Shown here in pieces: positions 3 to 22,325 of a DNA stretch of 23,726 bases. The DNA comes from a virus: positions 1-23,726 of the IMG/VR virus record IMGVR_UViG_3300017613_000094. One strand, given 5' to 3'. The translations under genes were made by a program, and so were the position numbers. The first letter of the stretch is position 1, and each line of letters starts with the position of its first letter. The notes beneath the pieces were generated by a model. The model was not told the origin of the DNA, did not search any database, and saw only the letters and a program-made list of their open reading frames with translations.

Positions 3-386
3 ATGTTATCAGATATATTTGCCATTATTAGAAAGGTGGTACCAGATAGTGATGCAGGTGCTAAACTAGAGGCTCAGATACAAGAGTCATATGATAAGGC
101 ACTTATAGAAGGTGTTAAAGCGGACAAAGAGATTAGACTTGCAGAGATGAGTTCTAGTAATTGGTTACAATCGCGTTGGCGACCTATAGCAGCACTCATA
201 GTGTTTGGGGCGTTGTTTGTGAGGTTCCCCCTTTATCACACATTACTGCTAGCAGTTAATTGGTTTGATTTACCAATCTATTTACCAGACTTAGAAGATT
301 TACCTAGAGATTTTTACTTATTAGCTACAGCTTTTGTAAGTATTTATGCATATGGTAGGTCACAAGAGAAACGATTTAAAGGATAA
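3..386 (+). CDS. 3TM-type holin (GTA_holin_3TM-like)
   Basis: Probable holin, a small inner-membrane protein that forms lesions at the end of infection so that endolysin can reach the cell wall. The 127-residue protein has a charged amphipathic N-terminal half (residues 1-50) that includes VVPD, then the family's typical W-x4-RWRP stretch (NWLQSRWRP, 53-61). It continues directly into a hydrophobic span at about 60-86, and a second follows at about 103-117. This layout matches the 'holin of 3TMs, for gene-transfer release' family, although only two spans are clear to me. The ATG is only 3 bases from the window edge, so its ribosome binding site is not visible and an upstream start cannot be excluded. 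The N-terminal sequence does look like a natural family start. Two bases separate its stop from the kinase start. No endolysin is visible nearby. Confidence 0.75.
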   Translation: MLSDIFAIIRKVVPDSDAGAKLEAQIQESYDKALIEGVKADKEIRLAEMSSSNWLQSRWRPIAALIVFGALFVRFPLYHTLLLAVNWFDLPIYLPDLEDLPRDFYLLATAFVSIYAYGRSQEKRFKG

Positions 387-388
387 AA

Positions 389-943
389 ATGAAAAAACTA
401 TTAATTGGAATTTCAGGAAAAATGGGTACAGGTAAGAGTACCTTAGCACATATGTTAAAAGCAGCATTTGAGGAAACAGGTAAGGTCGCTATAAGCTCCC
501 TAGCCTCTCCTATATATACAGCCCAACACTTGTTGTATAATGAGTATAACCTAGAACTTAATGGTGATAAGGATAGAGATCTATTGTTAGCTATTGGTAA
601 ATGGGGAAGATCAAAGAATAAAGATTTTTGGTTAGAGCAGTTTGCTAGAACGTCTATTGAAAGTGCTTATGAGATAATTATATGTGATGATGTTAGAATG
701 AAAAATGAGGCAGACTTCTTTAAGAAGAATGGTTTACTATTCAGGATTGAAGGGGAACAGCGTGGTAGTAACGTGGATGAGTCTAAGGTAGATAACCCGA
801 CAGAGTGTGACCTAGATGACTATGAATTTGAACACATTATATCAAATAAACAAGCACCTGCTATGATGTGTCAAGAGATTGCACACATAATGTTAGGTAA
901 GGGAGCTGAGGATGGAGAGCAAGAAATCCAAAAAGTGCTCTAA
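389..943 (+). CDS. Deoxynucleoside monophosphate kinase (phage dNMP kinase)
   Basis: Predicted cytoplasmic enzyme that phosphorylates deoxynucleoside monophosphates with ATP, feeding dNTP synthesis during phage replication. The 184-residue protein opens with a beta strand and a perfect P-loop, GKMGTGKST (10-18). A DDVR motif follows a hydrophobic strand (IIICDDVR, about 96-103), as is usual where these kinases place the Walker B/substrate-side acid. It is followed by the NEA-DFF-KK-G-L-FRIE pattern common in phage dNMP kinases, and near the C-terminus by an LDDYEFEHIISN stretch also typical of them. AAAGGA at 378-383 gives good spacing to the ATG. The 3' end overlaps the endonuclease VII gene by 32 bases. 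Family assignment is firm; which dNMPs it accepts cannot be told. Confidence 0.85.
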   Translation: MKKLLIGISGKMGTGKSTLAHMLKAAFEETGKVAISSLASPIYTAQHLLYNEYNLELNGDKDRDLLLAIGKWGRSKNKDFWLEQFARTSIESAYEIIICDDVRMKNEADFFKKNGLLFRIEGEQRGSNVDESKVDNPTECDLDDYEFEHIISNKQAPAMMCQEIAHIMLGKGAEDGEQEIQKVL

Positions 944-1361
944 GTGTGAAGAAACTAAAACACTAGATAAGTTTAATAAACGATCAGCTAGTAAGGATGG
1001 TCTTAGCTCTAGATGCAAGGTATGTTTGAATACTAAAGCCATGCATGTTAGAACTAATAGACCTGATACTACCAGAGGACATAACCTAAAGAAACGCTTT
1101 AATATGAGTATTGCTGATTACAACATAATATTCTTAAAGCAGAAAGGTAGATGTGCTATATGCAATGAAGCTGAAACTAGTGTAGATACTAAAGGTAAAG
1201 TAAAGTGGTTAAGCGTAGATCATAATCATTCTACTGGTGACATCAGGGGGCTACTATGTAACTCCTGTAATACTGGTATAGGGTTGTTGGGCGATAGCCA
1301 AAGTGTACTAAAGAGTGCAATTAAATATTTGAATAAAAGAGGATCATATGGAAAAAAGTAA
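912..1361 (+). CDS. Recombination endonuclease VII-like HNH resolvase
   Basis: Predicted structure-selective endonuclease related to T4 endonuclease VII, which cleaves Holliday junctions and other branched DNA before packaging. The 149-residue protein has a first zinc-binding pair set, C9-x2-C12 and C35-x2-C38. The diagnostic endonuclease VII core comes next: C81-x2-C84, the DHNH motif (103-106), STGDIRGLLC, and C116-x2-C119-N120. The two inner CxxC pairs should bind the structural zinc, and D103/H104 with N120 correspond to the beta-beta-alpha metal active site. T7 uses an unrelated resolvase (endonuclease I), so the same task is met here by a different family. The start lies inside the kinase gene (32-base overlap), preceded by AAGGGAG, and the 3' end overlaps the exonuclease gene by 14 bases. 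Confidence 0.9.
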   Translation: MESKKSKKCSKCEETKTLDKFNKRSASKDGLSSRCKVCLNTKAMHVRTNRPDTTRGHNLKKRFNMSIADYNIIFLKQKGRCAICNEAETSVDTKGKVKWLSVDHNHSTGDIRGLLCNSCNTGIGLLGDSQSVLKSAIKYLNKRGSYGKK

Positions 1362-9314: not shown

Positions 9315-9821
9315 ATGGCTGAAGATAAAGAATTAAAAGCACCAAGCATAACAAGTATAATTAGTGATTTTAGTAGTGATCTATGTCCTACACCAGAATT
9401 AAAAGCTGAAAGAAGGCAGGTTATATGCGAATTAGAAGCTAGGATGGGTACACTAGAAGGTAATTATGATATGGAAGAGTTTAATGAAGGTAAGATAAAA
9501 CATCATTATGCAACAGGTGTCTATGGTAGGGAACTATTCATACCAGAAGGTCAGGTTATAGTTAGTAAAATACATAAAGGTAAAACATTTAATATAATAA
9601 CAGAAGGTATGGTATCGGTAATATCAGAGATGGGTTTTCACACCTATACCGCACCTTACGTGTTTGTGTCTGATCCATTTACAAAGAGAGTTGTTATATC
9701 ACATATGGACACTGTATGGGTTACAGCACATGGCTCAGATAAAACAGATTTAAAGGACATAGAGGAAGAGATAATCGCAAGAGATTTTTCTGAACTTTAT
9801 GCAATAGAGGAGGGTAAATGA
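9315..9821 (+). CDS. Cupin-like phage protein (gp13 position)
   Basis: The 168-residue protein sits where T7 has internal virion protein A (gp13) but does not look like it. Residues 60-140 fit a small cupin-like jelly roll of a kind I have seen in other phages. HHYATGVYGRELFIPEG (63-79) leads to a strand with K85 and H87, a turn (TEG 96-98), then alternating short strands and a final TVWVTAHG (133-140), followed by an acidic helix. Metal-binding residues are incomplete compared with enzymatic cupins (H87 and possibly H130/H139). I infer a structural or accessory virion role rather than an enzyme. GGAGGAT precedes the start, and the stop overlaps the gp14-like start as ATGA, so the two products are probably made together. 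Confidence 0.65.
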   Translation: MAEDKELKAPSITSIISDFSSDLCPTPELKAERRQVICELEARMGTLEGNYDMEEFNEGKIKHHYATGVYGRELFIPEGQVIVSKIHKGKTFNIITEGMVSVISEMGFHTYTAPYVFVSDPFTKRVVISHMDTVWVTAHGSDKTDLKDIEEEIIARDFSELYAIEEGK

Positions 9822-10360
9822 CTTGGGTAGCGATAGGCACAGCAGGTGCAGGTATGCTTATGTCAGGTATGGCAGGAGCACAGGAGAGTTTAAATAAAGC
9901 TAGATTAATGAGGGCACAACAGGATGCTAAAATAAGGCAATTAAGTAAACAATTTGATTATGAAGCACAGAATGTACATAATAATAAAGTAGCAATAGAT
10001 CAACAAAAATTAACCAATGATGTTGCTATACAAGAGAATAAACTAAAGGCTGAAGATGCGTTTGCACAATCCTTTGCAGGATCAGGTGTTAAGGGTAGAT
10101 CAGTGGATGCTTTAGAGGCTCAGATTGCTAGTGGAACTGGAAAGGCACAAGCTGCTAATGCACAGCAAGCCACACAGCAGCATGATAGACAGTTTTTAGG
10201 TTTAATGCGTACTAATCTAAAAGCTCAAGACACTATTAGCCAGATAGAGATGTTTGATGCTAGTGCTGAGAAAGCAGCTAATGATATGGCTATGATGTCA
10301 GCAGGGGTTAATGGTTTCCTATCAGGTGGTGGTATGGAGATGCTTTTAAAAGACAAATAA
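9818..10360 (+). CDS. Internal virion protein B (T7 gp14-like)
   Basis: Predicted component of the internal core that is ejected into the cell envelope at infection and, in T7, helps form the channel across the outer membrane. It has 180 residues (T7 gp14 has 196). The N-terminus begins with a Gly/Ala-rich hydrophobic stretch (about 4-20), as in gp14. A long Ala/Gln-rich helical region follows, including an AEDAFAQSFAGSGVKGRSVDALEAQIASGTGKA-type segment (about 73-105) typical of the family. A Gly-rich hydrophobic end (NGFLSGGGMEMLL) closes it. Start is by a four-base overlap (ATGA) with the cupin-like gene plus a strong GAGGAGGG upstream. Confidence 0.87.
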   Translation: MTWVAIGTAGAGMLMSGMAGAQESLNKARLMRAQQDAKIRQLSKQFDYEAQNVHNNKVAIDQQKLTNDVAIQENKLKAEDAFAQSFAGSGVKGRSVDALEAQIASGTGKAQAANAQQATQQHDRQFLGLMRTNLKAQDTISQIEMFDASAEKAANDMAMMSAGVNGFLSGGGMEMLLKDK

Positions 10361-10378
10361 GTATAAAGGAGGTATATG

Positions 10379-12520
10379 ATGGCTAATGAATTTTTTAAGT
10401 CACCACAGTTAGGTCAAGCACAGTTAACTGATGCACAGCAGACTGGACTTACAGGTGAGGATAGAGCTGCAGTTACTAAAGCACAATTAGCTTCTCAAAG
10501 TATTCAAACATTACATAATATGGGAAAGAATGTTGTGCATAGTATTTCAGGTGTCTATCAAGATAATATTAAATATAAAAATAAAGTACAAAGTAAACAA
10601 CATCACAAATTCTTTCAAGCGGAGGTGAAGCAGAAGATAGCTAATACACCTAATTTTGAATCTATTGGTGATGAGGACTTGAAAAAAAAGTATTTAGAAT
10701 ATAGTGAAGAGTTTATGGAAGCTCATAGAGATAAACCCTATGCTGATACACTAGAGAAAGATCTAGCACTAATGGGTGATGATATGCTCGGTTTTATGAT
10801 AAAAACTAGAGGAGCTAAGCATACTCAAATTGTTACTGATGCAACAGCAGAAAGTGCTAATGGGCTTGGTCAAATGTTTACATCAGGTATGATAAGTGAT
10901 GAGCAATTTAATGGGCGTATAGCTGAACTACAGTATGATGCTACTTTTGGATTACAAGATCCTGCTAGTTCAAACTTACCCTTCAGTGATGAAGATAGGG
11001 CTAAGTATAGAGCTAATATAACAAGTAAACAATCATCTAAAGCTATACTAAAGGGGTTACTGATTCAAGCAGGTAATCCAAAAAATTCTAAATTAGCTGC
11101 TAAGATGAATACTCCAGAGTTTAGAAAATTTATGAATATAGATGATACGAATGAAGAGTATAATAAAAGTATGTATCTACTTGCTAAGAAAGGTCGAGCT
11201 GCTGATAAACTTAATTATGATAAAGGTATTGATGGTCTTAAAGAGACTCTATACACTATGACTAATCAAGGCTTACCAGTAAATATAGATAAACAGTTAG
11301 ATGGATTTAAGCAGCAAGGTAAAGCTATATCAGCACAGGATGAGCATAAGATAAGAAAAGCTTTTAAAAATGAGAATGACCTTGTAATTAAAACATCTAA
11401 CTACCTTGATGGTATGCAGAGTGGTAAGGATATTCTATTGAATGAAACCCCTAAAGTTAGAGAGGAGCATTTCAATAGGGCATTCTCTGACGCAGTAGGG
11501 CTTACAGGAGAAGTAATGTCTTTAGATAATATACACGCTAACGTGACTAGAGATGAGGTTACACAGGCTCGTCTAAAAGAGAACCTAGGTAATGGGGTAC
11601 CTTTACCAAAGAACATGACTAGGCTATTTGATATACCTGCAGGGAGTGATCCTGATAAATGGTTAAAAGCTAATGAGACTATACAAGTAATGTCTAGATT
11701 ATCTAAAGAAAGTGGTAGATCACTTACTAATTTCCTATCCCCAGAGGTAGTAGGCAAGGTTCGAGCAATATCAAATATACAAAGTAATCCTATACTGTCT
11801 ATTGAGCAAAAACAAGAGCAACACAATATGATATTAGATGATTACTCAAAGATTAATTCTAGAGGTTATATTAAGCCAATGGAAGGTTCTTCTATTGATA
11901 AAGATAAGTTAGCCAAAGCTTCTTCTGATGCTAAATGGACAACAGATAATTTAGAAGGTAGTAGACAGAACTTTGAAATCATGCAACATTATGCTTACCT
12001 GAACGAAAGAGCAGGTATGAATGGCGATGATGCATCAGAGTTAGCTATTCAGCAGTTTAATGATGGGCATAGTCAGCATGAGAACCCAGATGGTACTGAG
12101 ATAGCTATTCCTGTTGAGCATAAAAATTTAAATCCTACTGGACTTAAAATGTTTGCTAGAGGTAATAGAGATATATCTAATAGAATAACTGGTCAGAAAA
12201 TAGGTGGATTTAAGGACTATAGAATTGACAGACAAATTGGGATGAAGAAAGCCCCAGATTTTAATGTGTCTAAAGAATATCTACTTACATATGATGGTCA
12301 GGAAGTAATTGATGCTCGTTTTAAATATGAAGATTATACAAAATATATTAACGGATTAGATCCTAAACTACAGCGTCAAGTGAATAAGGCACTTAATAAG
12401 AGTAGACAAGAATCTATTGAAGATGGTATTAGACTAGGACAAAAGAGAAGAAAAGCAAGGGGAAGTAATAAAGCTGAAAAGTTTAGTTATGGGCAATTTG
12501 ACTTTGAATTTATTGAATAA
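10379..12520 (+). CDS. Internal virion protein C (T7 gp15-like)
   Basis: Predicted large internal core protein, the counterpart of T7 gp15, which is ejected and works with gp16 in moving DNA through the envelope. It has about 713 residues (T7 gp15 has 747), is almost wholly helical in appearance, and is rich in Lys, Asp, Asn and Gln. Direct sequence signatures are weaker than for other virion genes, so the call rests on position between gp14- and gp16-like genes, size and composition. Two ATG codons are adjacent (10376 and 10379). AGGAGG at 10367-10372 leaves only 3 bases before the first but 6 before the second, so I prefer 10379. The C-terminus is basic then acidic/aromatic, with RRKARGS-type and FDFEFIE-type segments. 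Confidence 0.85.
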   Translation: MANEFFKSPQLGQAQLTDAQQTGLTGEDRAAVTKAQLASQSIQTLHNMGKNVVHSISGVYQDNIKYKNKVQSKQHHKFFQAEVKQKIANTPNFESIGDEDLKKKYLEYSEEFMEAHRDKPYADTLEKDLALMGDDMLGFMIKTRGAKHTQIVTDATAESANGLGQMFTSGMISDEQFNGRIAELQYDATFGLQDPASSNLPFSDEDRAKYRANITSKQSSKAILKGLLIQAGNPKNSKLAAKMNTPEFRKFMNIDDTNEEYNKSMYLLAKKGRAADKLNYDKGIDGLKETLYTMTNQGLPVNIDKQLDGFKQQGKAISAQDEHKIRKAFKNENDLVIKTSNYLDGMQSGKDILLNETPKVREEHFNRAFSDAVGLTGEVMSLDNIHANVTRDEVTQARLKENLGNGVPLPKNMTRLFDIPAGSDPDKWLKANETIQVMSRLSKESGRSLTNFLSPEVVGKVRAISNIQSNPILSIEQKQEQHNMILDDYSKINSRGYIKPMEGSSIDKDKLAKASSDAKWTTDNLEGSRQNFEIMQHYAYLNERAGMNGDDASELAIQQFNDGHSQHENPDGTEIAIPVEHKNLNPTGLKMFARGNRDISNRITGQKIGGFKDYRIDRQIGMKKAPDFNVSKEYLLTYDGQEVIDARFKYEDYTKYINGLDPKLQRQVNKALNKSRQESIEDGIRLGQKRRKARGSNKAEKFSYGQFDFEFIE

Positions 12521-12537
12521 CAATTAGGAGGCGGTTT

Positions 12538-15500
12538 ATGAGTAAACCAAATATGAAACAGTTTGAAGAATTTCAAGCCAAAGCTGAGGAAAGAATAGGT
12601 AGATCCCTAACAGGAACTACTAGATCTTCTGGGCGTAATCATGGTGTTGATGGTGCATTAGACTTTGGTGTATCTAAAAATTCCCTTACGCATAAGGAAT
12701 ATCTTATACTAGGTCTAACAGCTAGGGAATATGGTTTTAGAGTTGGGGATGAGCGTGGGCATACACACAAAAGTGCGGTTAATCACATGCATGTGGATCG
12801 CCGTACCTATGAGCCTAAGAAATCTACATCAAAGGGTAAGTTACAACGAGATTTTGAAAGAGATCTTATAGATGGTACTGCTAGAAATGATGGTGGCTTA
12901 GGTATATTTACTAGGATGAAAGAGGAGATGGATAAAGGTATGAAGTTTGAGGATGCAATACACTGGGGATCACTTAATGACTTCAGCATGCAGATTGATA
13001 AATTTCAACCTGAACCTGAACCAGATATTGATATCAAAGAATTAACTACTGGTGTTCTAGCTTTAGATGCTTCAGATTATTTAGGTACAGAGCTATTTAA
13101 AGATGCAGCAGCTCTTAAACTTACAAATGTTAAAGAGAACCCTAATAGTATATCAGAGATACAGGAAATGGCACCTATTAAAGAAGTAAATTTTAGAAAA
13201 CCTAACAGTGTTCTAGAAGAGTCTCAGAGTGTTGTTACTAAACTGATGGCACAACCTACTGAGACAGAGCAGGAGCTGAGATACCCTATCAGACCTAATA
13301 AGCAGACTACACCTAGAGGTAAATCAAACTTCCAAGGTCAAAGTACTACTGGTATGGTTATAGATGCAATTTCAGATTGGGGCGGTCGCATGGCAGAGCA
13401 TGCTAAAGGTGAGAAAGACTTTACAGGTATGGGGGCTAACTTAGGTAATCAGGTTATTGAAGAATCTGCTGCAGGTCTTGTAGGACAAATACTACATAGA
13501 GATGCTATCACTACAGGTGTAGTTGATCCTGAGTTTAACCCTAAAAATAATCCTGAGGTATTAGAGCATGCAATCGAGGGTTTAAGTAATGAACAAGCTG
13601 AAAGCTTGCTGACAAACCATTCAAGTAATGAGCATGATTTTGTAGCTGTGAGTGAAGCAATGAAAGCGCAGAATCTTAGGAAAGCAGAGATTGATGAATA
13701 CTCTAAGGAGCACCCTGTGTTATCAGGAATTAACTTTGCAGGTAACATGTTAGGTGAGGCAGTAATGTTTGCACCATTAAACAGAGTTATAGCTGCAGGT
13801 GGCTTAGCAGTTACTTCTAAAGGTACATTTAAATCAGTCAGCGCTATGAAAGCTACTACTGCACTAGTTGGTGCTGAAGTTGTTGAAGGTGGTATTGGTG
13901 AAGCAATTCGTACAACACAGATGGAGAATTATGAATTTAATCCTTATATCTTCGGAACTGCTGTTGTACTAGGGGCTAGTGTTAATAAGTTAATGGATGA
14001 TGTAGCCCTTAAGCGAGGTGTTAGTGAGATATTAGAAAATGAAGATGGGTTTATTAAGATGTCAACTGCTCAAGCTAAACGTGTTGTAAAACAAGTAGCA
14101 AGTGAAGCTGATAGTTTAAATGCAAGTAAGATGGTAGATATGTTAATAAAGCGTAAAGGTGAGATTGCTAACACAATCAGAAAGTCTTTAAAGACTGACC
14201 ATGATACTTTGGTTAGTATGATTTCTAATTCTAAAAAGACTATGAAGGCAGCTCCAAAAGGCTCAGATGCATATAAGTTAGCTAAAGGTGATATGACTAG
14301 GGGTGTTAGAGAGTTGGCTAAATTGAAGAAGTCAATGCCTAAACAGTTCAAGTCAATTGCTGATGGTACACACCCATCATTTGCTATAGCACTTAACCCA
14401 CAAATAAGTACAAAAGCTATTGCTAAGGAGTTTAATATAGCACCAGATGTTCTAGATAACCCTGTGAAGTTAAGAGACTTCTTGGGGTTAAATGGTTCAC
14501 GTATTGGTGATGAAGTTTTAGTACAAGGTGAAAAGTCTTATGCTAATGTACTGCGTAGACAAGTTACTGAATTACAAAATAATAAAAGGTTAAATATGAA
14601 TACGTTCATGCAAGGTGTTTCTGAGACAATGAAAACATCACCTTTAGATATTAACAATTCAGTAAGTAATGTTCTTGAAGGTTTAGCTGATACTAATAGT
14701 GTTACATCAAAGTACATATTTAATAAAGGTAATTTGGTGTCTAGTGATAACCCTTTAATTGCAGGTTTTTATAACTTAATAGGATCTGATGGCGCAGGGA
14801 GACAAGGCATGTCTCAGATGAGAGCAGGACAGACACAACAAAAATATGCTAAGATCTTTGGTGGACAGTTAATGACTAACTATCGTACTAGAGGTGATGA
14901 GCTATATACTCACTTAATCAATAAAGATCAGGGAATGGATAAGCTTAAAACAAGAGCTGAAAACTTTTTAGATTATGAGAGTTATGAGAAAACAGTTAAC
15001 CCTATTTTAGAGGATAGGCTGAGATTAGGTAAAGTAGATTTTGCTAATAAATATGGTGAGGATTTAGAGATAATTAGGATAGCAGAGGATTTTGCATCTG
15101 ATTGGAATAAACTAAACCAAGATATTAATACATTACTTAAACGTAAGGGAGTTGAAGGAGTTGACTTTGAATCTTCAGAAGATTTTATCCATGCTAGTTG
15201 GGATTTTAACAAGGCTCGTGCTATGGACTTAGAAGATCTAGAAGATGGTTTATTTAACGGGATGGTTAAAAAGTTAGATGACAGTGGTATTGAATTTGAA
15301 GAGTCACTAATTAGGACTCAAGCTAAGAAGTTTGCTTTTGGTATCCGTAATGCTGATATCACTAAGAATTTAGAGGCTCAGAAGGGTTACATAGAGTTCC
15401 TAGAGAAGCTAGTAAAGCGTACAGATACTACTGAAGGCAAGGCTACATTAAACACTGAGATTAGAAGATTACAGACACAGAAGGCTGCTAATGAAGCAGG

Positions 15501-17148
15501 TGACTTGGGTAATAAATCTATGATAGATCTTAATGTTAATATTCCAAACACCAATGAGACATTATCTAGTCTAATGGAAAGTAACTTCCTTGTAACACAA
15601 AAGAAATATAATCAAAGAATGTCAGCTAGGATAGCGGCAGCAGAACACGGTATTAAAGATATTAACCAATTAGATGAGTGGGTTAATGATGCAGTTGATT
15701 CTGAGGTTAAGAAGCTCGCAGCTTCAGGTACTAGAGATCCCGATAGAGCTGTAAAGCATATCAGGGAATCTATGGAACAGGATCTTAAATCATTTAAGCA
15801 TGGTAACATGGCAGGTAGATCTGATTTACTTGAGCAGGATGCACATGATGTTGTTAGATTAGCTAATAAGTATAACTTTGCACGACTAATGCAGAGAGTA
15901 TCTATTGCCTCTATTGCAGAGCTTGGTGGTACTATTAATGAAGTTGGTTTATTCAATGCTAGTAAGGCGTATATAAATGAATTTAAGAATGTACTTAGAG
16001 GACTTAAGAAGTCTAACCCTAAAGGATATCAACAAGAGCTTACTGAAGCACTATCTAGCATCACTGGTATTGGTTTAGAAGATTGGGCTTTTACATCTAG
16101 AGGTGTCTCTGGTGGTGAAAGAATCTTTAAAGAAGGTGCAGCAGGTGGTTTTGAGAAATTTGTAGACGGAGTTGGTGCAGTAACACAGGGAACACTAGGT
16201 GGTATGGAGACATTTCACAGAAGGTTAACTATGAATGCTATTGCAAACAAACTTGGTAAACACTTTGTAGGCAAATCAGATGATAATTTTATGCCCCTAA
16301 TATTTGGTGGCAACAAGTTATCTACTAGATCTATGGAGAATATAGGACTAGGATCATACGATCCAGTCAGTAAGAAGTTAGTTACTAATGCTAAATATGA
16401 GGCAGTAAAGAGTAACTATATTAAACATGCTAAGCTAGATAAAGAGGGTAATCTTATGAACCTAAATCTTAAAGATTGGAATAAGGATGCCGTTGAAGAT
16501 TATGCTGATGCAATAGTAATGCAAGCTTCACATATAATGGTAGATCCTGACTCTGTAACTTCAGCTCTATGGCAGAATACTACAGTAGGTAAGATAGGTT
16601 CACAGTACCAATCATTCTCGAGAAATGCTAAGACTAAAGTATTTGGATATCATATGAATAATGCTGCTATTGGTTTAGAGCGTGGTGACTACCAAGAAGT
16701 TGCTAAACTGGCTAATGTTATGTACGTAAGTGCTTTAACAGGTTTAATAGCTATTAGCTTAAACTCAGAATTAGGTAATACAGGTAAAGGTGAAGGCTTA
16801 GGTGCTGATACTGCTGCACTATTCGATGATGGTGTATTACAAGCGATGGCAGTAGGGTTATCTAGAAGTTCTATGATAGGTGGTATTGATGTACTAACTG
16901 ATACAGTTGGTAGTTCTATGTTTGGTTATGATCCCATATTTACTGGAGCTTCCTTCACAAATAGAAGTAAGAACTTTGGGAACTTAGCTGCAACACCATT
17001 AGGGCAATTAGTGTCTGGCGGTATTAGTGCAACTACTGATTTAACATCAGGTGACTTTACAGGAGCAGGTAAAAAGGCTTTAAAATTATCTCCATTCCAA
17101 AGACAACTAGGAGTAGGGCAATTAATTAATTTCTTTTCACAAGATTAA
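12538..17148 (+). CDS. Internal virion protein D (T7 gp16-like) with N-terminal M15-type peptidase domain
   Basis: Predicted ejected core protein of 1536 residues, larger than T7 gp16 (1318), which carries an N-terminal lytic transglycosylase used to breach peptidoglycan. Here the first 90 residues look different. H35 and D42 stand in an H-x4-G-A-L-D-F arrangement, close to the SxHxxGxAxD zinc motif of M15 peptidases. After them come a helix (53-66), YGFRVG (65-70) and NHMHVD (82-87), matching the third ligand site (HxH-V-D/E). This fits a D-Ala-D-Ala carboxypeptidase or L-Ala-D-Glu endopeptidase fold. The central part is long and helical. Hydrophobic, Gly/Ala-rich segments occur near 390-455 and near 1390-1470. 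The C-terminal LSPFQRQLGVGQLINF resembles the ends of gp16 relatives. AGGAGG precedes the start. Confidence 0.88.
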   Translation: MSKPNMKQFEEFQAKAEERIGRSLTGTTRSSGRNHGVDGALDFGVSKNSLTHKEYLILGLTAREYGFRVGDERGHTHKSAVNHMHVDRRTYEPKKSTSKGKLQRDFERDLIDGTARNDGGLGIFTRMKEEMDKGMKFEDAIHWGSLNDFSMQIDKFQPEPEPDIDIKELTTGVLALDASDYLGTELFKDAAALKLTNVKENPNSISEIQEMAPIKEVNFRKPNSVLEESQSVVTKLMAQPTETEQELRYPIRPNKQTTPRGKSNFQGQSTTGMVIDAISDWGGRMAEHAKGEKDFTGMGANLGNQVIEESAAGLVGQILHRDAITTGVVDPEFNPKNNPEVLEHAIEGLSNEQAESLLTNHSSNEHDFVAVSEAMKAQNLRKAEIDEYSKEHPVLSGINFAGNMLGEAVMFAPLNRVIAAGGLAVTSKGTFKSVSAMKATTALVGAEVVEGGIGEAIRTTQMENYEFNPYIFGTAVVLGASVNKLMDDVALKRGVSEILENEDGFIKMSTAQAKRVVKQVASEADSLNASKMVDMLIKRKGEIANTIRKSLKTDHDTLVSMISNSKKTMKAAPKGSDAYKLAKGDMTRGVRELAKLKKSMPKQFKSIADGTHPSFAIALNPQISTKAIAKEFNIAPDVLDNPVKLRDFLGLNGSRIGDEVLVQGEKSYANVLRRQVTELQNNKRLNMNTFMQGVSETMKTSPLDINNSVSNVLEGLADTNSVTSKYIFNKGNLVSSDNPLIAGFYNLIGSDGAGRQGMSQMRAGQTQQKYAKIFGGQLMTNYRTRGDELYTHLINKDQGMDKLKTRAENFLDYESYEKTVNPILEDRLRLGKVDFANKYGEDLEIIRIAEDFASDWNKLNQDINTLLKRKGVEGVDFESSEDFIHASWDFNKARAMDLEDLEDGLFNGMVKKLDDSGIEFEESLIRTQAKKFAFGIRNADITKNLEAQKGYIEFLEKLVKRTDTTEGKATLNTEIRRLQTQKAANEAGDLGNKSMIDLNVNIPNTNETLSSLMESNFLVTQKKYNQRMSARIAAAEHGIKDINQLDEWVNDAVDSEVKKLAASGTRDPDRAVKHIRESMEQDLKSFKHGNMAGRSDLLEQDAHDVVRLANKYNFARLMQRVSIASIAELGGTINEVGLFNASKAYINEFKNVLRGLKKSNPKGYQQELTEALSSITGIGLEDWAFTSRGVSGGERIFKEGAAGGFEKFVDGVGAVTQGTLGGMETFHRRLTMNAIANKLGKHFVGKSDDNFMPLIFGGNKLSTRSMENIGLGSYDPVSKKLVTNAKYEAVKSNYIKHAKLDKEGNLMNLNLKDWNKDAVEDYADAIVMQASHIMVDPDSVTSALWQNTTVGKIGSQYQSFSRNAKTKVFGYHMNNAAIGLERGDYQEVAKLANVMYVSALTGLIAISLNSELGNTGKGEGLGADTAALFDDGVLQAMAVGLSRSSMIGGIDVLTDTVGSSMFGYDPIFTGASFTNRSKNFGNLAATPLGQLVSGGISATTDLTSGDFTGAGKKALKLSPFQRQLGVGQLINFFSQD

Positions 17149-18833: not shown

Positions 18834-20495
18834 ATGGCAATAGTAACATTTAGTTCAGTGCTGAAAGGTTCAGATAATGTAGTCACATTAGATAAAGCTG
18901 AGCTTTCTGCGGATACAAAAGTTATAGCAGATCCTTACTTCAGCAACCAAGCAAATTGGAGCAAGGTAGCAGTAACATATAAAACAACAAGTGGTCAATT
19001 AAAAAACATTTTCTTTGACGCTTTACTGACGACACCTACTGGTAACTTTGATCCATCAATCTATGCAATGACGGATTGGTTAGTTAATGCATTAGTAGTT
19101 TATGGCGTTAATGATGAGATATTAATTCTAACTAGAAGTGATCTAAATACAGTTAATTTTGACATTACTTTAACAGAACCACCAGTAATATTACCACCTG
19201 CAAATGTTGGTTATGTTGGTGAGCCTTTTACATGGGATATAAATGTGGCAGTTTCACAGTTCCCTTCTGGTAATATAGGAAGTGCCATAGATAGTTATGC
19301 AATTGTGTCAGGAAGTTTACCCACAGGAGTTTCTTTAAACCCTACTACTGGTGAAATTAGTGGAACACCTACAGTGGCACAAGGTGCTACTTTCGTGACA
19401 ATTGGTGCATCTAATTCCGCAGGGGAACAGCACATAGTATTTGAAATTACTGTTATAGCAGTAGTTGTAAGTAATGCCCTGACATGGAATGAATTTGGTA
19501 ATGATTTCATAACTACGTCTAATGCATACATACATGATGAAGATGGTGCATTATACTACTTGATACAATCAAATGAGCAAATAAGTTCTGGGAGTTTTGA
19601 GCTTAAGTTTAAGACAACTCCTGTAATAAATCAACAGGTAGTAGGTTTAGACATAAGTCCTCATGCAAGTACTAATAATGATTACAACCTTATTGATTAT
19701 GGTTTCTCATTTAGTGGTGGTTCTTGGAGTATTTGGCAGAATGGTGGGGTTGGTGGTAGTCCTACTGGAGCTTTCAGTGATAATGATGAGTTTAAAATAG
19801 AAGTAGATACCGTAGCAGATGAAGTTAGGTACTATAAGGTGAACATGGTAACACCTGTACACACTACATCAATTGCAATGGTATTCCCAGTTAAACTAAC
19901 ATCAACAGCATACTCTACTACACCAAGGTCTATGACATTATATGATATAACTTTTGGTGATTATGGGGATACTGGGCAGACTTGGACAACTGAGGTATCA
20001 GATAATACCTCACCAACTATGACCATACTACAGGCAGGTACAACTATTCAGAAATCTGGAGGTACAAACTATAGTGGTGATAACAATTCTAGAACAATTA
20101 ATGAGATAATTAGTGGTGATGGCTTTGTACAGGTTACTGTTCCTGCAGGCTATGCATCTGGTGGTAACAGGGGTAGATTTGGCTTACAACACTCGGCACC
20201 TCTTACAGATCCCACATCAGCTACAGCCCCAATAGTAATGGATTATCAGTTATATATAAGAGGTACTGCACTTAGGGTGCATGAAGCTTCTGGTTCAATA
20301 GCACAGCATACTTCTGTAGCTGATGGTGACGTAATCAGGATTGAAATCTCTGGAACAGATGTTATATATTCAAAGAATGGTACAACATTTAGGACAGTAC
20401 CTTCAGCGACATTAAATTATCCATATGGTGCAGGAGTTGTTGTAGAGACAACAGCAGCACCACTTAGTGGTATAGAATTTAGTGGCACATCATAA
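18834..20495 (+). CDS. Putative adhesin A: shared N-terminal domain, Ig-like domain, two beta-sandwich modules
   Basis: Putative tail-associated receptor-binding protein of 553 residues. Residues 1-115 are homologous to the start of the next gene's product (roughly 45-50% identical by eye, with SKVAVTYKTT identical), so they probably form a common anchor or assembly domain. Residues 125-208 form a putative Ig-like domain of the He_PIG type, shown by LPTGVSLNPTTGEISGTPT (162-180). Two modules follow, at about 215-375 and 385-553. Each ends in strands such as DEFKIEVDT-ADEVRYYK or DVIRIEISGTDVIYSKNG, typical of lectin-like/concanavalin or SPRY-like jelly rolls that bind sugars. No signal peptide is seen. 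A strong AAGGAG precedes the start. The position after the fibre gene supports a role in host binding, but this is inference. Confidence 0.78.
   Translation: MAIVTFSSVLKGSDNVVTLDKAELSADTKVIADPYFSNQANWSKVAVTYKTTSGQLKNIFFDALLTTPTGNFDPSIYAMTDWLVNALVVYGVNDEILILTRSDLNTVNFDITLTEPPVILPPANVGYVGEPFTWDINVAVSQFPSGNIGSAIDSYAIVSGSLPTGVSLNPTTGEISGTPTVAQGATFVTIGASNSAGEQHIVFEITVIAVVVSNALTWNEFGNDFITTSNAYIHDEDGALYYLIQSNEQISSGSFELKFKTTPVINQQVVGLDISPHASTNNDYNLIDYGFSFSGGSWSIWQNGGVGGSPTGAFSDNDEFKIEVDTVADEVRYYKVNMVTPVHTTSIAMVFPVKLTSTAYSTTPRSMTLYDITFGDYGDTGQTWTTEVSDNTSPTMTILQAGTTIQKSGGTNYSGDNNSRTINEIISGDGFVQVTVPAGYASGGNRGRFGLQHSAPLTDPTSATAPIVMDYQLYIRGTALRVHEASGSIAQHTSVADGDVIRIEISGTDVIYSKNGTTFRTVPSATLNYPYGAGVVVETTAAPLSGIEFSGTS
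18963..18989 (+). repeat. 27-bp exact direct repeat, copy 1 (in adhesin A)
   Basis: These 27 bases occur again without a mismatch at 20645-20671 in the next gene, at the same place in the protein. They encode the KVAVTYKTT part of the shared N-terminal domain. The flanks diverge quickly. Either a recent partial gene conversion or strong constraint would explain it. Confidence 0.85.
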
Positions 20496-20515: not shown

Positions 20516-21901
20516 ATGGCAATACTAACATTTGGTACAGTGGCGGAAACATCTGCTACTATATTCACACTTAACAAAGCCGATCTAGAGGCACATAACA
20601 TAGTAGCTGCAGATGATTACTTCAATGATGCAATAAATTTTAGTAAGGTAGCAGTAACATATAAAACAACAGTAAGTGATCAGTTAGAGAACTTTTTCTT
20701 TGACTATGCTTTAGATTATCCTACTCATACATTTGAACCACCAACTGGTACAACTGATGATTGGGAAGTTCAGGCAGTAGTAATCTATGATCATGATGGT
20801 GGTACATTAACCTTACGTAGGATTAATCTAGAGACAACTGATTTTGACTTCACTGTAGGAGATGCGGTTGCAACTGGTATTAGAATAACTCAGGATTTTA
20901 GACAGCCATATGATATTATAGCACCTCAAACTATACTTAATAGAATTGATGTGGAGGTGTATGATCAAAATGGTAACGATTTTGACATTGGTGGTGCAGT
21001 TGCTTGGAGAGTTAAACTTACAGGTGGAGCATATGGTGTTGAAGTGACAGGGGATACAGAAGTAAATTCTTATTCAAGTGGCTATGCTAGGTTTCAAAAC
21101 ATAGAGTTTGCAAGTGCCTATGGCTTTGCATCCCTAGAGTTTTCTATACCATCACGTCCTGATTTAGGTATTATAACATCAAAGACAATAAATGTCACAA
21201 ATGTACCCACAGTCGCAGGGCTAAGATTCAAAGTACACCCAGAAGGTGGAGCAGCGCCTAATGAATTATTACCTACCACACCAGTGGTACAGCTTATTGA
21301 CCAGTTTGGTAATGATATTTCACAGGCAGGTGTTGAGGTTATTCTAAAAGCTACTTATGCTCCTGATCAGTTTACCGACTTAGTTGGTGACACTCAGGTA
21401 ACTACTTTGTCTAACGGTACTGCGCCATTCCCAAGTGTATACTTTGATAAGGAATATGATGGATCTATATCAGCTTACTCACCTAGTGGACACTTAGGTT
21501 CAGTAACTTCAGATTTTTGGCTTAAATGTAGAGTGGCGCCAATACTATCTAATTTAGTATTCTCCCCAGAGCAAATTATTAGTGCTCCTGCAAATGCATC
21601 TCTATCTTCTTTTGATATACTATTAAAAGATCAGTATGGTGCTGAGTATATTACATCTGGTGATGAGTTTAATGAACAGAATGGCGGTACTAATAACGGC
21701 TACGTTTACATGGAAGTTGAATCTGGTAGTGGTAATATAGGTGGTGATTCTGCTGTAGAGTTGAATCTTGTAAATGGTACAGTTACTTTTGATGCTTTAT
21801 CATTAGACACAGCAGGAACATATCAAATCACAGCAACAGTTGTTAATACAAGTTGGTATGTGGTGGCAAGAGCTACATCTATACCATTCATAATAACATA
21901 A
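20516..21901 (+). CDS. Putative adhesin B: shared N-terminal domain and three Ig-like repeats
   Basis: Putative tail-associated protein of 461 residues. Residues 1-115 match the N-terminal domain of the preceding product. The rest consists of three tandem beta-sandwich repeats of about 105-115 residues (about 119-227, 231-337 and 344-461). Each carries a DQ-x-G strand-turn motif (150-153, 262-265 and 372-375), then a G-x-T/S element and an ARF, APF or VTF strand, as in bacterial Ig-like or invasin-type domains. Such repeats are usual stalk or adhesion modules on phage virions. No catalytic motif is visible. The start has TAGGAGG with 6-base spacing. Its product lacks the sugar-binding-like modules of its neighbour, which suggests a different ligand or a stalk role. 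Confidence 0.75.
   Translation: MAILTFGTVAETSATIFTLNKADLEAHNIVAADDYFNDAINFSKVAVTYKTTVSDQLENFFFDYALDYPTHTFEPPTGTTDDWEVQAVVIYDHDGGTLTLRRINLETTDFDFTVGDAVATGIRITQDFRQPYDIIAPQTILNRIDVEVYDQNGNDFDIGGAVAWRVKLTGGAYGVEVTGDTEVNSYSSGYARFQNIEFASAYGFASLEFSIPSRPDLGIITSKTINVTNVPTVAGLRFKVHPEGGAAPNELLPTTPVVQLIDQFGNDISQAGVEVILKATYAPDQFTDLVGDTQVTTLSNGTAPFPSVYFDKEYDGSISAYSPSGHLGSVTSDFWLKCRVAPILSNLVFSPEQIISAPANASLSSFDILLKDQYGAEYITSGDEFNEQNGGTNNGYVYMEVESGSGNIGGDSAVELNLVNGTVTFDALSLDTAGTYQITATVVNTSWYVVARATSIPFIIT
20645..20671 (+). repeat. 27-bp exact direct repeat, copy 2 (in adhesin B)
   Basis: This is the partner of 18963-18989 and lies in the same codon register of the shared N-terminal domain. Confidence 0.85.
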
Positions 21902-22106: not shown

Positions 22107-22325
22107 ATGAATAAGGAGGAATACTATAAACGTATAGAAGATAAAATGGATAGACAAACTAAACTTCTTAATGATATTAAAGATGGTGTGCATGAGGAGT
22201 TTACGTTAATTAAGCTTGCACACCAGAAACTCAAATATGGTGTTATGGTTCTGACAGTAATGATCCTCGGGATCGCTGCGGAATCATACCCAAAGATTGC
22301 ATCTTTAATGAAGAAGTTACTATAA
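22107..22325 (+). CDS. Small one-pass membrane protein, candidate holin (T7 gp17.5 position)
   Basis: The 72-residue protein has a charged, probably helical N-terminal region (1-40) with a coiled-coil look (IEDKMDRQTKLLNDIKD), then one hydrophobic segment (about 44-60, GVMVLTVMILGIAA), and ends in a short basic tail (MKKLL). The layout resembles XhlA-type haemolysin/holin-associated proteins. It lies between the receptor-binding genes and the small terminase gene, exactly where T7 encodes its 67-residue type II holin (gp17.5). The role in lysis is therefore a positional inference, since sequence similarity to gp17.5 is not evident. AGGAGGA at 22097-22103 supports the start. A second GGAGG occurs just inside the gene (about 22116) but is not followed by a suitable start codon. 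Confidence 0.6.
   Translation: MNKEEYYKRIEDKMDRQTKLLNDIKDGVHEEFTLIKLAHQKLKYGVMVLTVMILGIAAESYPKIASLMKKLL

Follow-up and report, generated by a model that had tools for sequence, protein, structure and literature searches.

A small module in the hydrolase slot of a gp16-like phage ejection protein: a possible divergent LAS-type zinc peptidase

Results

Layout of the locus and of the gp16-like protein

The window, by which we mean the whole 23,726-base stretch of DNA that was analysed, is a virus record from a T7-like podovirus. It encodes an exonuclease, the portal, scaffold, capsid, tubular A and nozzle proteins, a short tail-fibre adhesin, gp14-, gp15- and gp16-like proteins, a fibre, the small terminase and a truncated large terminase. 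The ejection genes lie in the order gp14-like, gp15-like, gp16-like and are followed by the tail fibre, on which a PF03906 match was found (Table 1).

The initial annotation regarded the large product of this region as a gp16-type ejection protein. This is borne out by the gene order, by the PF24072 and PF03906 matches and by the last 430 residues of the protein, which are 22% identical (E 2e-8) to a putative internal virion protein of Rhizobium phage RHEph21. In its gene place, and in having its body in common with annotated internal virion proteins, the protein is of the T7 gp16 type, while the N-terminal SLT domain of that type was not found. We also looked for an SLT domain elsewhere in the protein, which would speak against a replacement at the N-terminus; neither this domain nor any other known hydrolase domain was detected, either in the rest of the gp16-like protein or among the further proteins of the window that were scanned. 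The second conserved block, at residues 116-152, gave no family match.

Table 1. Positions of the features of the window discussed in the text
Feature	Position	Strand	Basis
Holin-like membrane protein, left end	3-386		GTA_holin_3TM PF11351 (5.7e-12); phrog_3427 holin
Recombination endonuclease VII gene	912-1361		PF02945 (2.5e-21)
Short tail-fibre/adhesin gene	9315-9821		phrog_12032 (4e-29)
gp14-like ejection protein	9818-10360	+	PF24072 T7_gp14, E 1.9e-8
gp15-like ejection protein	10376-12520	+	Position, relatives; hydrolase domain not found
Shine-Dalgarno AGGAGG, strong	12526-12531	+	Read directly; six bases 5' of ATG 12538
gp16-like ejection (internal virion) protein, 1536 aa	12538-17148	+	ORF, gene order, RHEph21 match
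N-terminal module, residues 1-87, candidate LAS/M15-like zinc peptidase in wall-hydrolase slot	12538-12798	+	Sharp end at D87, AF2 order, slot comparison
H35, candidate first zinc ligand	12640-12642	+	Translation, L001 alignment
D42, candidate second zinc ligand	12661-12663	+	Translation, L001 alignment
H83, first His of HxH, candidate catalytic base	12784-12786	+	Role by analogy, PMC4087270
H85, candidate third zinc ligand	12790-12792	+	Aligned ranges: third ligand of LdcB, Shh, VldE
D87, last residue of module	12796-12798	+	Translation
Second conserved block, residues 116-152 (GIFTRMKEEMDKGMKFEDAIHWGSLNDFS)	12883-12993	+	69% identity to L001; poorly conserved, fast-evolving linkers on both sides
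gp16 body, from about residue 161	13018-17145	+	Common to relatives with other N-terminal enzymes
Ig/invasin-like protein, first of tandem pair	18834-20495		PF05345, weak PF09134
Ig/invasin-like protein, second of tandem pair	20516-21901		PF05345, weak PF09134
Small holin-like protein	22107-22325		Coiled start and one predicted membrane stretch

Several other features of the window were recorded. The adhesin encoded between the nozzle and the gp14-like protein is 83% identical to its counterpart in the relative L015, and the gene is missing from the relative L001; around it, the window and L015 are 68% (nozzle), 56% (gp14-like) and 40% (gp15-like) identical. It has the look of a receptor-binding cassette that is exchanged on its own. 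The two tandem Ig/invasin-like proteins downstream of the tail fibre have similar N-terminal stretches and look like paralogues. One holin-like protein is encoded at the left end and another beside the terminase, and no endolysin gene was found within the window. The endonuclease VII gene lies directly 5' of the 5'-3' exonuclease gene and overlaps it.

Comparison of the N-terminal slot among relatives

Further loci came from searches in which first the nozzle and later the gp16 body served as query. Eight other distinct gp16 proteins with a complete N-terminus have the body in common, but not residues 1-160. Their bodies are about 36-43% identical to those of the pair formed by the window and L001 and up to 81% identical among themselves, and none of the eight carries the module of the window in this slot. 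What they carry falls into five unrelated types, all glycan-cutting by family: Phage_lysozyme2 (tail lysozyme) PF18013 in L015 and L020 (E 6e-23 and 4e-23), GH108 PF05838 (5e-17) with a peptidoglycan-binding piece in L024, a GH24 phage lysozyme PF00959 (1e-13) in L025, an endolysin recognised by phrog_90 (9e-14) with no Pfam match in L026, and a transglycosylase-like module in L010, L017 and L030 (phrog_27932 'baseplate hub subunit and tail lysozyme', 1e-20 to 3e-24; PF06737 weak).

The tree of the gp16 body is fully supported, and the window and L001 form a branch of their own with their own module. In two pairs, a body with PF18013 is joined to one with the transglycosylase-like module: L020 to L010, and L015 to L017, the bodies of the latter pair being 81% identical; L024, L025 and L026 bear three different module types on bodies that are 60-68% identical. 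Module types are therefore mixed among close relatives in a manner that shows repeated exchange. Judged from these comparisons, the N-terminal end of the gp16-like protein is an exchangeable slot for wall-cutting enzymes and, since relatives swap hydrolases in this same slot, the module of the window is very probably a wall hydrolase. This exchange is the best evidence for such an assignment and is independent of any M15 argument. It also agrees with the earlier proposal that the module sits in place of the T7 SLT domain, as the relatives have wall hydrolases exactly there.

The His/Asp motif and its conservation

The residues to which the initial annotation drew attention, H35, D42, H83, H85 and D87, are exact in letter and coordinate. 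Within residues 35-87, H35-x6-D42 is followed by H83-x-H85-V-D87 (translation ...SSGRNHGVDGALDFG...TAREYGFRVGDERGHTHKSAVNHMHVDRR). The likeness to the SxHxxGxAxD zinc motif holds in part: the H-x6-D spacing and an alanine two residues before the aspartate are present, whereas the serine at H-2 and the glycine at H+3 are missing, the glycine being shifted, as had been noted from the outset. Strict M15 spacing is not conserved, because the first pair in L001 is H-x5-D; a six-residue loop before HxH is also missing there. The rule given for LAS enzymes in the LdcB paper is H-X(3-6)-D...H with a second motif HxH, of which the first His is catalytic (PMC4087270), and both modules conform to it.

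L001 is an IMG/VR relative whose whole gp16-like protein is 69% identical to that of the window. Between the two modules, H35, A40, D42, F43, H83, H85, V86 and D87 are invariant while their neighbours change. Residues 1-87 are 70% identical to L001 with a dN/dS of about 0.23, a rough ratio given that dS is high, and this 87-residue unit is under purifying selection. The linker that starts directly after D87 (residues 88-115) is 36% identical with no visible constraint, these ratios being equally rough. No module relative other than L001 was found in IMG/VR, no close one in cultured phages and none in GTDB genomes, which leaves two known sequences of the module.

The chance occurrence of the motif was assessed with 100,000 column shuffles of the module. 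The M15 order H-x6-D...HxH arose in 1.3% of the shuffles and the looser LAS order in both homologues jointly in 0.75%. The string H-x(3,4)-A-x-D-[FILV]...HxH-[VIL]-[DE], which was picked after seeing the sequence, arose in 0 of 100,000.

Other assignments of the same residues were tried and rejected. For M23 (LytM-type, H-x3-D), H35-G-V-D38 gives H-x2-D, one residue short, and L001 does not keep D38. An HUH nuclease could be read from HMHVD with Y91-x-x-K94, but the tyrosine is missing in L001 and lies too near HUH. An amidohydrolase or TatD enzyme, as read from HxHxD, requires a large barrel.

Sequence searches and profile comparison

The module gave no Pfam match even at E 10, no NCBIfam match, PHROGs matches at chance level only, and nothing meaningful in PDB sequence searches. 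PF08291 and PF13539 were matched in the controls HTVC010P and T5, and by nothing in the window or L001 records; Pfam M15_3 was not found in the records of the relatives. For profile comparison, an M15_3 alignment of 42 varied sequences from genomes was used, an 80-locus IMG/VR set being left out as too uniform. In hhalign the module scored 13.8 against this alignment; of 400 shuffles, 38 scored as high, and so did 8 of the 91 unrelated segments. The positive controls scored 42-162 (held-out M15 rows) and 27 (T5 lysin); the test has power. At the permissive setting used, H35, D42 and H85 were aligned on or next to the M15 ligands, but with this score, within the shuffle range. With no Pfam M15 match and a profile score within the shuffled range, the M15 membership originally proposed was not borne out, and we do not assign the module to this family.

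Predicted fold of the module

AF2 models of the window and L001 proteins were built from two-sequence alignments. The window model (pLDDT 62) comprises H6-20, E40-43, H52-64, E68-73 and E82-87, and both models exhibit the same order of helix, strand, helix and two-strand hairpin. With the window model, VIA ranked LdcB first (Z 6.5, 89 residues, 4.2 A) and also returned many Hedgehogs (about Z 4.8), 1lbu (4.8) and VldE (4.7). These LAS matches, with Z of 4.5-6.5, are tied with phosphatase caps, ribosomal S6 permutants and designed proteins.

The end of the aligned range on 1lbu places H85 onto H197, which we take to be the third zinc ligand of that protein. The other range ends, which concern ranges and not residue pairs, place H85 onto H207 of LdcB, H183 of mouse Shh and H375 of VldE, all of which are third zinc ligands (PMC4087270, PMC4102407, PMC11667670). 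The start of the VldE range brings H35/D42 within about one residue of H301/D308. As these structures are mutually related, the LdcB, Shh, VldE and 1lbu matches represent one line of support and not four.

Foldseek placed ChiX (M15C) fourth for the window model (E 0.36), and a viral protein of 146 aa, A0A516M654, matched the module in structure in BFVD (E 3.3e-4, 34% identity). When the L001 model was used, the Hedgehogs returned in VIA, with LdcB, 1lbu and VldE absent among the best 50 matches, and no LAS member was present among the best 50 Foldseek matches. The matches of both programs also take in unrelated alpha/beta folds. The M15-like succession of helix and strand that had been described from the sequence is thus upheld to a degree: the AF2 order and some of the fold matches are compatible with a LAS/M15 core, but the low pLDDT and the tied Z scores weigh on the other side. 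At the level of the predicted fold, LAS-like is the most likely reading, and it is plausible that the module is an M15/LAS zinc peptidase.

Discussion

We propose, with moderate confidence, that residues 1-87 of the gp16-like protein are an interchangeable wall-hydrolase module and, in this phage, most likely a very small and highly divergent zinc peptidase of LAS type (M15-like). The bolder claim, that it represents a new minimal LAS zinc-peptidase family of about 87 residues which acts as the entry hydrolase and is the sole peptide-cutting module yet seen in a slot that holds at least five glycan-cutting kinds in related phages, strikes us as evenly poised. During T7 entry, gp16 is released from the capsid; the wall is opened by the enzyme at its N-terminus, and its remaining part contributes to the tunnel across the periplasm and to the pore in the inner membrane (PMC8954989). 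With timing analogous to that in T7, the module would be ejected into the periplasm with the gp16-like protein. Zinc would be held by H35, D42 and H85, H83 or a nearby acid may serve as the catalytic base, and peptide stems or cross-links would be cut to give a local hole in the wall.

It is rather unlikely that the module is instead a wall hydrolase of another, unrecognised family, such as a glycosidase or amidase of unknown fold, in which the His/Asp pattern is not a LAS zinc site. Such an enzyme would accord with the five recognisable slot modules, which all cut glycan by family, with the failed M15 profile test and with the unspecific fold matches. Nevertheless, no library recognised a conserved Glu placed as in lysozymes or transglycosylases, and the size of 87 residues, together with the conserved His, Asp and HxH, fits a metallo-enzyme better. 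We find it improbable that the module is a degenerate LAS-like domain which does not cut, and which binds peptidoglycan or aids the packing or unfolding of gp16. The Hedgehog LAS zinc fold does serve without proven peptidase activity (PMC4102407), and the module is off consensus in its lack of S-x-H, its shifted glycine and the H-x5-D of L001, but HxH, H35 and D42 survive a loop deletion and many neighbouring changes, and a dN/dS of about 0.23 likewise speaks against this reading. That the N-terminus has a role other than wall hydrolysis, such as contact with gp15, gp14 or DNA, and bears the motif by chance, is equally improbable: in the T7-like marine phages HTVC119P, HTVC019P and CRP-113 no enzyme is recognisable at the N-terminus of the gp16-like protein, the bare pattern occurs in about 1% of shuffles and unrelated alpha/beta folds are among the fold matches, but a hydrolase-like module is present in every complete N-terminus examined in the close clade, and the His and Asp residues in particular are conserved.

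If the module is a LAS-type zinc peptidase, its presence in the gp16 slot would suggest that the ejection machine needs a local hole and not the cutting of a particular bond. Since M15 membership was not supported, the step from glycan to peptide bonds can reasonably be inferred but is not a result. Ejection proteins are already known to have varied hydrolases, and the domain may be on gp15 or gp16 (PMC8954989, PMC5380687); in a 2017 review, the enzymes listed for ejection proteins in Gram-negative podoviruses are glycosidases, and the one endopeptidase listed among Gram-negative phages is phi6 P5 (PMC5380687). Our search of the open-licence literature turned up neither a peptidase in a gp16-type protein nor an exchange of so many modules among such similar gp16 bodies. 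Five hydrolase types in one slot, on bodies up to 81% identical, amount to a general cassette exchange. Similar bodies with different modules, such as those of L015 and L017 with their unrelated enzymes, constitute a natural experiment in which one can ask whether the enzyme follows host wall chemistry, and the slot modules are a source of compact new candidate muralytic domains.

Comparison with known systems

Like T7 gp16 (PMC8954989, PMC5380687), the gp16-like protein is large, is encoded after gp14- and gp15-like genes and combines an enzyme-sized N-terminal module with a long body. In contrast to T7 gp16 with its N-terminal lytic transglycosylase, the window has no SLT, the 87-residue module has the His/Asp/HxH residues, and the likeness shown for the body is to phage relatives. 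The same body, gene place and slot are shared with the eight IMG/VR relatives L015, L020, L024, L025, L026, L010, L017 and L030, whereas their modules belong to glycan-cutting families. SP6 gp36, K1E/K1-5 gp35 and phiKMV gp36 resemble the window in having a hydrolase other than the T7 type in the ejection machine (PMC5380687, PMC8954989), but all are lysozymes, sometimes on gp15 or C-terminal, and none is described as a peptidase.

The Peptidase_M15_3 endolysin gp37 of Pelagibacter phage HTVC010P has H-x-x-G-x-A-x-D-F, a helix and a strand with H-[VI]-[DS], a compact layout that resembles that of the module; unlike the module, it is encoded by a separate lysis gene with a clear Pfam match, and the module is without the SGYR..N..GG loop. 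LdcB (M15B, 4nt9), 1lbu (M15A) and Sonic Hedgehog (1vhh) match the AF2 model with Z of 4.7-6.5 and 16-17% identity. The P5 endopeptidase of phi6 is an entry peptidase in the virion of a Gram-negative phage (PMC5380687), as proposed for the window, although phi6 is a dsRNA phage in which P5 lies on the nucleocapsid surface as part of an unrelated machine.

Motif 3 of the TM4 tape measure and MT3 of VldE are LAS peptidases with H-x6-D and HxH, as in the window (PMC1796659, PMC11667670). They differ in that the former is in the tape measure of a long-tailed mycobacteriophage and VldE is a cell protein, and neither matches the module in sequence. VldE, the pneumococcal counterpart of TM4 motif 3, is an L,D-endopeptidase (PMC11667670). 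TM4 motif 3 is an earlier case of a phage entry protein with a LAS peptidase domain (PMC1796659), and both TM4 and T7 show that enzymes of this kind are most important when the wall is that of stationary cells, with more cross-links.
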